A stretch of 33,417 nt of DNA from Chloroflexota bacterium (GTDB lineage: Bacteria > Chloroflexota > Dehalococcoidia > CAUJGQ01), in NCBI GenBank assembly GCA_963170165.1, contig CAUJGQ010000090.1:1-33417 (forward strand). Direction: 5' to 3'. Position numbers and translations under genes: made by a program. Below the pieces are notes generated by a model. The model ran no database searches, was not told the origin of the DNA, and saw nothing but the letters and a program-made list of their open reading frames with translations. Of this stretch, positions 22,473-26,331 are shown in pieces. How positions within the stretch are numbered: the stretch's first letter is position 1; every line of letters begins with the position of its first letter.

Positions 22473-23711
22473 TCATCCCTGTGCGCTTTTCCATCCGCTC
22501 CCCGCTGCTCTCCCCGTGCACCAGGCCGCCTGGAGGTTGAACCCGCCGGTAAAGCCGTCCACGTTGAGGATTTCGCCGGCCAGATACAGGCCGGGCACGA
22601 GCCGGGATTGCATCGTCACCGGGTCTACCTCCTCGGTGGGGATGCCGCCGGCGGTGACGAACTCATCGCCGCTGCGCCGTCCTGTCACCGGCAGCGGCAG
22701 CGCGCCGATCAGCATCGCTAGCCGCTGCCGCGCCGCCCGCGGCAGGCGGGCCGCTGGTGTGCGCGGTGCGACCTCCGCCAGCGCGCACAGCACCGGGCAG
22801 ATGGAGCGCGGCAGCAGCGTATCCAGCACGTTGACCACCGCGCGGCCACCCAGCCGCCCCAGCCGCTCCTGCAAGGCACCGTCTACCGCCTCCGGTCGCA
22901 GCTCCGGCAGCAGGTTGACGCGCACCGGTAGCGGCGCTTCTGGCGAGAACGGCCGGTCCGCCACCAGGGAGCCCAGCGCGAACACTGCCGGCCCGCTCAC
23001 GCCGAAGTGCGTGAACAGAAACGGCCCGCGGAACCGCGCCTTCATCCCGGCGATGGCCAGCTCAGCATCCGGGAACGACAGCCCCGCCAGCGCCCGTGCC
23101 CAGGGCTCGGCCACCACCCATGCCGTCAGGCTGGGGTACAGCGGCGTGACGGTGTGGCCCAGCGACCGGGCGAAGCCGTAGCCATCGCCGGTCGAGCCGG
23201 TGTGCCGGTAGGCGCTGCCGCCAGTGGTGAGGATCACCGCCTCGAACGGCCCGGCGCCGCCGTGCTCCGTGGCGATGGCAAAGCGGCCGGCGCCGGCCGG
23301 CGTCACCGCCGTCACCCGGCAGCGCAGCCGCACATCGACGCGGCCCGCCGCTAGTACCCGCGCGAAGGCGGCGACTACATCGTGACCGTTGTCTGAGACG
23401 GGAAAGACGCGCCCATCAGCCTCCGTTTTGAGCGGAACGCCGTGGCGCTCGAACCAGTCGATCACCGCGGCGGGCGGGAAGGCGTGCATGGCCGGGCGCA
23501 GCCAGCGGCCGCCGCGCGGGTAGCGGGCGAGCACGGCGCGGATGCTGGTTAGCCCCGTGGTGACGTTGCAGCGGCCGCCGCCGGAGATGATTACTTTGGC
23601 TCCCAGCCGCGGGTTGCGCTCGAACAGTGTCACCCGCGGTGCAGCCTCCTCTACCAGCGTCGCCGCCGCCATCAGCCCCGCCGCGCCGCCGCCAATCACC
23701 GCCACATCCAT
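22473..23711 (-). CDS. BaiN/HI0933-family FAD flavoprotein
   Basis: The 412-residue protein belongs to the HI0933/BaiN family of NAD(P)/FAD-dependent oxidoreductases. It has GGGAAG at 7-12 for FAD, LGAKVIISGGGRCNVTT (about 38-54), TTGGSAYRHTGSTGDGYGFARSLGH in the middle, and the C-terminal GLYLAGEILNVDGFTGGFNLQAAW where FAD is held. Members reduce double bonds in bile-acid-type substrates or have unassigned roles; the conserved family occurs in many bacteria. The frame extends upstream to 23792, but MDVAVIGGGAAG at 23711 is the natural start. It has no Shine-Dalgarno and TACGCT lies 6 nt before it. Convergent with the SDR gene, so no operon link. Confidence 0.9.
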   Translation of the reverse strand: MDVAVIGGGAAGLMAAATLVEEAAPRVTLFERNPRLGAKVIISGGGRCNVTTGLTSIRAVLARYPRGGRWLRPAMHAFPPAAVIDWFERHGVPLKTEADGRVFPVSDNGHDVVAAFARVLAAGRVDVRLRCRVTAVTPAGAGRFAIATEHGGAGPFEAVILTTGGSAYRHTGSTGDGYGFARSLGHTVTPLYPSLTAWVVAEPWARALAGLSFPDAELAIAGMKARFRGPFLFTHFGVSGPAVFALGSLVADRPFSPEAPLPVRVNLLPELRPEAVDGALQERLGRLGGRAVVNVLDTLLPRSICPVLCALAEVAPRTPAARLPRAARQRLAMLIGALPLPVTGRRSGDEFVTAGGIPTEEVDPVTMQSRLVPGLYLAGEILNVDGFTGGFNLQAAWCTGRAAGSGWKSAQG

Positions 23712-23717
23712 GCGATG

Positions 23718-23723
23718 AGCGTA
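23718..23723 (-). promoter_or_regulatory. TACGCT box before the BaiN-like gene
   Basis: On the minus strand TACGCT is followed by six bases and the ATG of the BaiN-like gene, with no ribosome-binding site. The hexamer is the same as in the divergent pair at 10 kb, with one base less spacing. It is probably the -10 box of a leaderless transcript. No convincing -35 is visible. Confidence 0.4.
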
Positions 23724-23788
23724 ACAGGGAGGGAGCAGAGAACCCGCATTGCGGCGGACGTGCGTGCTGCCCAAAGCTGCCATGGTTC

Positions 23789-23923
23789 CCACGCACGTGG
23801 GGGTGAAGCTTCACGCGAAGACGCGAAGACGCGAAGTGGGTATTGGTCATGGTCCCCACCCGGCTCGGCTTCGCGCCTTCGCGCCTTCGCGTGATCGATC
23901 AGCTCCACGCACGTGGGGGGTGA
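23789..23923. repeat. Hairpin element bracketed by direct repeats
   Basis: The gap between the BaiN-like and P450 genes has no gene. It contains a 26-nt arm at 23811-23836 made of period-8 ACGCGAAG units, and an inverted arm at 23869-23894 made of CGCCTTCG units. The arms match at 24 of 26 positions and both differences would be G-U pairs in RNA. The loop is 32 nt. Flanking this are near-identical direct copies of CCACGCACGTGGGGGTGA at 23789-23806 and 23905-23923 (one extra G in the second). The symmetric layout looks like a small non-autonomous repeat or a structured RNA rather than a chance terminator. Confidence 0.65.
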
Positions 23924-24001
23924 GGGCGTGCTTGCTATCTGTGCTGCGGTGCTCGCTGCGCGTTACGCTGGCGCGCGTTGCCCGCGCATGTGCAATCCGG
24001 G

Positions 24002-25222
24002 CTAAGCACCCCGCTCCACCACCAGGCTGGTGAAGCCGCGGAAGCCGGGCAGCAGGCGGCGCTGGGGCTTGGCGTCTGCCGCCAGGCGCAGGGAGGGGCA
24101 GGCGTCGAGCAGGGCGGCGAAGGCCTCCTGCGCCTCAACGCGGGCGAGCGGCGCGCCCAGGCACATATGCCGGCCGCCTCCGAAGCTGTGATGCTTGACG
24201 TTCTCGCGGGTGATATCGAAGGCGCCGGCATTGGGGAAGACGGCGGGGTCGTGGTTGGCGGCGGCCAGGCTGGGGGTAATGCTCTGCCGTGCCGCCACGG
24301 CGCCGCCGGGAAAGCTCACCTCGGTGCTGGGCACCCGCCCCGTCTCGGTCACCGGCGAGTCGTAGCGCAGCATCTCCTCCACGGCGTTGACCAGCAGGCC
24401 GCGGTCTGCTTGGAGCGTGGCGTACTGCTGCGGGTTGGTGATCAGCGCGTACACGCCGTTGCCGATCAAGTCGGTGGTGGTGACGTTTCCGGCCACCAGC
24501 AGCAGCTGCAGCATGGTGGACATTTCGGTATCGGTCAGCCGGTCGCCCGCCTCCTGAGCGGCGATCAGGCCGCTGATCAGGTCGTCACGCGGGGCGGTGC
24601 GGCGGTGGTCAATCTCCTCGATGAAGAAGGTGTGGATCGCCGCGCGCGCCGCATCGCGGGCCGCCTGCTGCTCCGCGGTGGCGAAGGGGTTGAAGATGTT
24701 CACCAGCGCGTCGGACCAGGCCTTGAACTCGTCACGCCGCGCCGGGTCCACGCCGATCATCTCGGCAATGACGAGTGTAGGCAGCGGCGCGGCCAGGGTG
24801 GCGATGATGTCGAACCGCTCCCCGGCCTCCGCCAGCAGCGTAGCCGCCAGCGCGCGGGCACGGGGGCGCATCGCCTCCACCGCGCGTGGGGTGAAGGCTT
24901 TGCTCACCAGCCCGCGCAGGCGCGTGTGCGCCGGCGGGTCAAGGAAGAGCATCGGGATCGCCTCCTCCTCGGCAAACAGTGCGTTCTGGGCAAAGGTATG
25001 GCCGAAGGTGCCCTCCGCCGCCTGGCGCGGGTCTTGCAGAAAGGCCGGGCCGCGCAGCGCCGTCACCACGTCGTCATGGCGGGTGAGCAGATAGCGGTTG
25101 CCCAATGGCTCATGGAACACGGGCGCGGTCTGCCGGAGCATCTCCAGCATCGGATACGGGTTCTCGACAAACGCCGCCACCATCGGCGGCATCTCCTGGT
25201 TTGGCGCGGGCTCGGTCGTCAT
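24002..25222 (-). CDS. Cytochrome P450
   Basis: The 406-residue soluble bacterial P450 has PPAHTRLRGLVSKAFTPRAVE, the ExxR pair in EEMLRYDSPV, and the haem loop FGGGRHMCLGAPLAR with C354 as the iron ligand. The I-helix reads LLLVAGNVTTTDLIGN: V247 replaces the acid of the usual AG-x-(D/E)-T-T oxygen-activation motif, while Thr follows normally. The frame runs upstream, but ATG 25222 has GGAGGGG 9 nt before it. The gene follows the LLM oxidoreductase by 68 bp on the same strand, so the two may share a transcript. No ferredoxin gene is near. Hydroxylation of a lipid or terpenoid-like compound is possible; altered chemistry cannot be excluded because of V247. Confidence 0.93.
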   Translation of the reverse strand: MTTEPAPNQEMPPMVAAFVENPYPMLEMLRQTAPVFHEPLGNRYLLTRHDDVVTALRGPAFLQDPRQAAEGTFGHTFAQNALFAEEEAIPMLFLDPPAHTRLRGLVSKAFTPRAVEAMRPRARALAATLLAEAGERFDIIATLAAPLPTLVIAEMIGVDPARRDEFKAWSDALVNIFNPFATAEQQAARDAARAAIHTFFIEEIDHRRTAPRDDLISGLIAAQEAGDRLTDTEMSTMLQLLLVAGNVTTTDLIGNGVYALITNPQQYATLQADRGLLVNAVEEMLRYDSPVTETGRVPSTEVSFPGGAVAARQSITPSLAAANHDPAVFPNAGAFDITRENVKHHSFGGGRHMCLGAPLARVEAQEAFAALLDACPSLRLAADAKPQRRLLPGFRGFTSLVVERGA

Positions 25223-25290
25223 CAGTGGCCCCTCCCCGGGCGTGCCACCCATTATCGACCGCGCCCCACCGCCTGTCAGCCCGGTCGCGC

Positions 25291-26331
25291 TCAGGCGGGC
25301 GCCGCCGCGCCGGTAATCGCGGCCATCAGCCGGAAGGCCTCCATCTGGCGTGACTGGACCATCATCGTGGTGACGCCGGCATCCTCCCAGGCGCGGTAGC
25401 GCTGGCGGATGCGCGCCTCCGGGCCGCACAGCGATAACTCGTCGCACAGCTCATCCGGCACCAGCGCCTCCGCCTCCTGCTTGCGGCCGGCGAGGTACAA
25501 CTCCTGGATGCGGGCGGCGGCATCGGCGTAGCCGTAACGGGCGATCATCTCGTTGTGGAAGTTCTTCTCGCGGGCGCCCATGCCGCCCACATACAGCGCC
25601 AGTTGTGGCTTCATCGCCCGGAAGGCGGCGGGCAGGTCGTCGGTGACGTGCACCGTGCAGCCGGGGACGATATCAAACTCTTTGAATGACTTGCCACCAC
25701 CGGCGCGGCGAAAGCCCTCCTCCAGCGCGGGGCGAAACAGGTCCATGCGGTAGGGCGAGAACCAGATCGGCAGCCAGCCATCGGCCAGCTCGGCGGTGGT
25801 ACGGATATTCACCGGCCCCATGGTCGCCAGGTACACCGGCAGTTGTCGGGTATGGAGGATGCTCTTGAGCGGTTTGCCCAGCCCGCTGCTGCCCGGTCCG
25901 GTGTAGGGAAGCTGATACTCCTGCCCCTGGAAGGAGACCGGCGCCACCCGCGCCCAGATAGCGCGAAGGATCTGCACGTACTCACGCAGGCGGACAGCCG
26001 GTTTGCCGTAGGGCACGCCGTACCAGCCCTCGACCACCTGCGGGCCGGATAGCCCCAGCCCCACCAGCACCCGCCCGCCGGAGAGGGCGTCCAGCGTCGC
26101 CATCGTCATCGCGCAGCTGGCCGGCGTGCGGGCCGGCACCTGCAGGATGGCCGTGCCCAGCTTGATGCGCTCGGTCCGCGCCGCGATATACGCCAGCGGG
26201 GTGACGGCATCGGAACCGTAGGCCTCGGCCGTCCACACCGAATCAAAGCCCAGCCGCTCCAGCTCAAGGATCAGATCCAGCGGGATCGCCAGCTGAGCGC
26301 CGGAATAGCCGATGTTGAATGCCAGCTTCAT
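25291..26331 (-). CDS. LLM-class flavin/F420-dependent oxidoreductase
   Basis: The 346-residue TIM-barrel protein is a luciferase-like oxidoreductase. Marks are the N-terminal MKLAFNIGYSG, LERLGFDSVWTAEAYGSDAVTPLAYIAARTERIKLGTAILQ (split about residues 28-68), MATLDALSGGRVLVGLGLSGP and YVQILRAIWA. The family uses F420H2 or FMNH2; the GSDAVTPLA region and overall pattern resemble F420-dependent members of Actinobacteria and Chloroflexota. AGGTG lies 5 nt before the ATG at 26331. It is the first gene of a two-gene minus-strand unit with P450 and is divergent from the PadR-mod unit. The substrate is unknown; a hydride transfer or oxygenation of a carbonyl or cyclic compound would fit. Confidence 0.92.
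   Translation of the reverse strand: MKLAFNIGYSGAQLAIPLDLILELERLGFDSVWTAEAYGSDAVTPLAYIAARTERIKLGTAILQVPARTPASCAMTMATLDALSGGRVLVGLGLSGPQVVEGWYGVPYGKPAVRLREYVQILRAIWARVAPVSFQGQEYQLPYTGPGSSGLGKPLKSILHTRQLPVYLATMGPVNIRTTAELADGWLPIWFSPYRMDLFRPALEEGFRRAGGGKSFKEFDIVPGCTVHVTDDLPAAFRAMKPQLALYVGGMGAREKNFHNEMIARYGYADAAARIQELYLAGRKQEAEALVPDELCDELSLCGPEARIRQRYRAWEDAGVTTMMVQSRQMEAFRLMAAITGAAAPA

Follow-up and report, generated by a model that had tools for sequence, protein, structure and literature searches.

What is the hairpin that stands between two direct copies at positions 23789-23923 of this contig: a short mobile repeat or a structured RNA, the two readings offered by the initial annotation? The window analysed here is contig C90 in its whole length (33,417 nucleotides), and it belongs to a Chloroflexota draft genome, G000, of 4.41 Mb in 213 contigs (97% complete). 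Both elements noticed at the outset are real. The arms of the hairpin, 25-26 nt long, lie at 23812-23836 and 23869-23893 and match far beyond chance; the flanking direct copies agree exactly over 15 nt (23789-23803 and 23905-23919), and over 18-19 nt when a one-base gap is allowed. Together they form an intergenic composite of 145 bp, in the order CRISPR-like repeat, arm 1, 32-nt loop, arm 2 and second CRISPR-like repeat, and the proper bounds of the feature should be set at about 23782 to 23926. The neighbouring open reading frames, both on the minus strand and named by eye, encode an FAD-dependent oxidoreductase-like protein (22473-23711), whose start is ~70 nt from the first repeat, and a cytochrome P450-like protein (24002-25447), the true start of which is uncertain and which ends upstream of the hairpin on that strand. 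Near both contig ends (27-124 and 33001-33171) stand other short repeats in direct orientation, 32-36 nt in length and resembling GGGGCGCTGNCCGTCCCCTCGTTA, and perhaps the contig breaks there because of them.

Judged by sequence, each flanking copy is a stray version of the genome's own type I-E CRISPR repeat. A search of G000 with the flank led to regular 61-bp arrays on contigs C61 and C103, in which the repeat reads (A/G)TGGTCCCCACGCACGTGGGGGTGAACCG and all 14 of the 14 complete spacers are 32 nt long; the sister genus G001 shares this repeat and has an array with 26 of them. On contig C204, cas3, cse1, cse2, cas7 and cas5 were recognised by Pfam, together with the start of cas6e. Contigs C61, C103 and C204 each break off at the edge of an array or of the cas genes. 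It is the match of the array repeat with the flanks, along with these cas genes, that marks the flanks as stray copies and indicates that the type I-E machinery is present. The first copy, R1 (23782-23810, plus strand), aligns with the array consensus ATGGTCCCCACGCACGTGGGGGTGAACCG over 26 nt with a score of 22.5-23.5 and carries the core CCCACGCACGTGGGG exactly at 23788-23802, while the second, R3 (about 23898-23926, same orientation), scores 15.5 and has one mismatch in its core, TCCACGCACGTGGGG, at 23904-23918; the best score among 3772 control windows was 12.0. R1 is near-identical rather than identical to the array repeat and R3 is more decayed, and because of this unequal decay the pair is no fresh target duplication. 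As read from the sequence, both retain the palindromic stem of the repeat. Their spacing is not that of an array, being 116 nt from start to start as against 61, and the stretch inside is a dispersed repeat.

Outside the arrays, a search of the 4.4-Mb draft for the 15-letter core, one mismatch being tolerated, found it only at C61:1885 (alignment score 22.0), C90:23788, C90:23904 and C103:2475. Three of these four cores, the two on C90 and the one at C61:1885, are in contact with hairpin arms. If the arm neighbourhoods are taken to cover 1.8 kb, contact of this kind has a chance of ~3e-10, or of 5e-7 when the window enters the count only once. The solitary repeat on C103 (locus L105, 2467-2495, minus strand) keeps 27 of 29 letters, stands ~1.36 kb beyond the array on that contig and has no hairpin beside it. 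Between the regions downstream of the arrays, blastn found only the repeats shared and tblastx only short weak matches.

The hairpin itself folds strongly on either strand. Arm 1 (plus strand, by pattern match) consists of three period-8 units of the CACGCGAAG type, and arm 2 (minus strand, by pattern match and pairing) is its inverted copy with two A/G differences, which leaves 23 of 25 Watson-Crick pairs. The stretch 23770-23940 has a folding energy of -93.2 kcal/mol (z -5.45) as plus-strand RNA, -92.4 kcal/mol (z -6.92) as minus-strand RNA and -50.6 kcal/mol (z -4.88) as plus-strand DNA, and in each case 0 of 200 shuffles was as good. Do the arm differences betray an RNA, given that they had been thought to fall only at positions that remain pairable by G-U? 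On the minus strand they do remain so, both differences being G-U pairs; on the plus strand they are A-C mismatches, and across the family the claim does not hold. In five family copies, 125 arm pairs comprise 116 Watson-Crick, 2 G-U and 7 unpaired positions on the plus strand, and 116, 4 and 5, respectively, on the minus strand; the copies on C34 and on C61 near 14900 have their G-U pair on the plus strand, unlike that on C90 (minus strand). Since the strand that keeps its pairing varies among the copies, the G-U pairs are no sign of RNA selection or of a conserved RNA. A structured RNA, if still conceivable, was not supported by the other results: the window matched no known RNA family in Rfam, no promoter-like site was seen in 23600-24100, and the arm differences unpair one strand or the other. 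A consensus scan of the same stretch gave no terminator-like site and so lends no support to the notion that the hairpin acts only as a terminator.

The other reading, that of a mobile repeat, calls for relatives, and the genome search for the arms found them at seven places: C10, C34, C61 near 1900, C61 near 14900, C90, C140 and C144. The arms are indeed built with a period of eight, as CGCGAAG plus one variable letter, and G000 has 26 two-unit sites of the pattern GCGAAGNCGCGAAG as against 1 for the reversed-pattern control. Five copies have one loop in common, with about 79-93% identity over the core. At C90 the loop contains ATGGTCCCCAC (23849-23859, plus strand, read from the sequence), identical with letters 1-11 of the CRISPR repeat. 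The half-repeat extends to 13 letters in the loop on C140 and scores 13.0 there, above the control maximum, whereas in the copies on C34, C144 and C61 near 14900, which are not independent, it scores 9.0-11.5, within the control range; the loop piece therefore persuades in a single copy, the remaining ones being inherited or decayed. The C10 copy has no CRISPR piece, which speaks against a fixed composite. GTGGGG stands at most 14 nt upstream of six arms in G000; in the 244 remaining genomes of the class sample the count never exceeds 2, the control level. One hairpin copy (L155 2674-2786, that is, C144:48173-48285) is in frame with an apparently truncated phage head-protein gene, at whose beginning it stands.

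Beyond this genome the arms are patchily distributed. Of the 301 genomes in the phylum sample, 5 have three-unit arms: G000 with 12 matches and four others with 10, 30, 42 and 46, as against none for the control; one of the five contains a hairpin unit in an 82-bp tandem. Arms are also present in other phyla, in archaea and in 48 stretches of viral contigs, in some of these as inverted pairs. The loop sequence gave no match in the viral contigs. No plasmid relatives of the locus were found; the hairpin core had one 26-nt match among plasmids, in a Sphingopyxis plasmid, and only weak matches among phages, to Mycobacterium phage genes (E 0.4). A scan of genome contigs from other phyla yielded 15 matches in 14 stretches, none of which, by eye, has a type I-E repeat upstream. 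A check for regular repeats at 95 loci from other sources, several of them overlapping and part of the 62 pattern loci being chance matches, flagged only one 82-bp tandem of hairpin units (seen in five overlapping views) and the viral-contig locus L196, whose flagged repeats are ~4.6 kb away from its arm. Because arms outside G000 were never seen beside CRISPR repeats, the association of hairpin and CRISPR repeat comes from one genome.

At L241 (1463-1848, G473:C4), ~4.7 head-to-tail copies of the 82-bp hairpin half-unit run up to a stretch of N. Near 6488 in L196 there are three copies of GGCGTGGGGTTTTCCCCACG, 75 and 68 nt apart, possibly a small array. The viral contigs L177, L187, L195 and L199 carry several hairpins of octamer units, some nested with a second, CACGGAG-like unit type. 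On the IMG/VR viral contigs L238 (near 1239) and L239 (2142-2162, minus strand) there is a single exact type I-E repeat core each, outside arrays, much like the solitary units with which RNA anti-CRISPRs are associated.

How did hairpin and CRISPR repeat come together? With a probability of roughly 0.55, we regard the feature as a non-autonomous palindromic repeat that has spread in G000 together with captured CRISPR-repeat pieces. The findings suggest that a mobile repeat either acquired parts of a CRISPR array or came to lie next to them. Its arms would be tandem eight-letter units of the kind that recurs in unrelated bacteria, archaea and viral contigs; the G000 repeat would have become composite by acquiring whole or half type I-E repeats of its host at the edges and in the loop, probably when the hairpin was inserted into an array remnant or recombined with one. 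The composite may then have been copied to several intergenic sites, with the loop lost or flipped through the inverted arms. At C90 itself, inert DNA or a weak intercistronic hairpin is the likeliest state of the element. For mobility there are the dispersed copies in the genome, the patchy spread with up to 46 matches per genome, and the occurrence in other phyla and viral contigs; however, neither an empty site nor a target duplication was seen, and the sister genome G001 lacks the oxidoreductase-like neighbour gene, with no match to it. The analysis turned up no enzyme that would mobilise the repeat, and two links with genes were rejected. PF01797, the mark of a RAYT-type Y1 transposase, had no match in G000 (a draft, 97% complete) and was positive in 5 of 14 control genomes. 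A gene for a Uma2 nuclease follows the hairpins at C61:14808-14988, but only 1 of the 16 Uma2 matches of the genome adjoins a hairpin.

The main rival to this reading is a decayed mini-CRISPR array (repeat, spacer, repeat) in which an ordinary hairpin took the place of the spacer or broke into it, without any co-mobilisation. Terminal repeats of arrays are often the more decayed, and R3 is the more decayed of two repeats that share the array-like orientation; moreover, the stray repeat with its hairpin on C61 lies ~1.3 kb past an array end, much as the one on C103 does past its own. Against this, the repeats are 116 nt apart rather than 61, and a single local insertion leaves unexplained why distant loops also bear the half-repeat and why six arms have GTGGGG upstream. 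We therefore hold a mini-array to be possible, yet clearly the less probable account. A second rival draws on the fold of the minus strand, on which the stem has 26 unbroken pairs, two of them G-U, and a z of -6.92: since both neighbour genes lie on that strand, the hairpin might be an intercistronic element of a P450-to-oxidoreductase unit, acting as a brake on transcription or shielding the end of an mRNA. The lack of a terminator-like site in 23600-24100, the occurrence of family copies in other settings, one of them within a reading frame, and the inconstancy of the pairing strand among copies make this improbable as an account of the feature.

Could the stray repeats instead be at work as RNA? 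A functional ectopic-repeat RNA of the plus strand would be cut by Cas6e at the repeat hairpins and serve as guide or decoy, in the manner of CreA or Racr. The intact palindromic stem of both repeats and the type I-E operon with its cas6e start fit this proposal. R1, however, has lost the end of what we presume, from the position we take it to have within the repeat, to be the 5′ handle (GTGAAGCT instead of GTGAACCG). The interior enclosed by the repeats is ~88 nt long and self-pairing, unlike the 32-nt spacers, the plus strand is antisense to both neighbour genes, and 23600-24100 holds no promoter-like site; for these three reasons such an RNA is unlikely, and we give it the least credence among the rivals, even though ectopic repeats of this kind are described in two reports (PMC9458426, PMC10651486).

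The captured-repeat reading preferred here, with CRISPR-repeat pieces on a dispersed hairpin, would offer one concrete way for repeats to leave arrays, and one that can be checked in close relatives. It is conceivable, if rather unlikely, that a small mobile hairpin captured the host CRISPR repeat and carries copies of it to new chromosomal sites, thus seeding ectopic repeats as a possible source of regulatory guide RNAs, decoys or new arrays. Octamer-built hairpins, patchy yet present across phyla and common in certain viral contigs, did not come to light in a literature search, which is a weak test. Toxin-antitoxin pairs and viral anti-CRISPR RNAs are two settings in which repeats outside arrays have been assigned a part (PMC9458426 and PMC10651486, respectively).

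Among known systems, the REP/REPIN elements are similar in being short, palindromic, dispersed intergenic DNA without coding capacity and patchy among genomes. In the REP super-families one end of the stem bears GTAG or CGTC (PMC3733652); in contrast, neither tetranucleotide occurs anywhere in 23782-23926, the arms in G000 are made of eight-letter units, and the IS200/IS605-like Y1 transposase of RAYT type is missing from its gene matches. Inverted arms, small size and multiple copies recall a MITE, from which the feature appears to differ in that it lacks defined terminal repeats with a target duplication, its flanks being unequal CRISPR-repeat copies, and in that no related transposase was found. 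A type I-E array shares with it the repeat sequence of G000, in two copies of the same orientation, but here there are two repeats only, spaced by 116 and not 61, with a repeat-family hairpin in place of a spacer. A parallel in the repeats themselves is with the degenerate repeats outside the array of CreTA toxin-antitoxins (PMC9458426) and the viral solitary repeats (Racr) of anti-CRISPR RNAs (PMC10651486): one or two degenerate repeats lie off-array in a genome with the matching CRISPR-Cas type. A CreTA guide also matches in part the promoter of a neighbouring toxic RNA, with the pair linked to the cas genes, and a Racr unit belongs to a virus or another mobile element. Two degenerate repeats, as in CreTA, are present at C90, yet they frame a self-pairing dispersed-repeat stretch of 88 nt instead of a guide of spacer length; the site was not seen beside cas genes, the cas operon being on the separate draft contig C204, and the promoter that stands upstream of a Racr solitary repeat has no promoter-like counterpart in 23600-24100. 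We accordingly file the hairpin as a variant of the dispersed palindromic repeats, a member of neither the REP nor the ectopic-repeat (CreTA/Racr) families.
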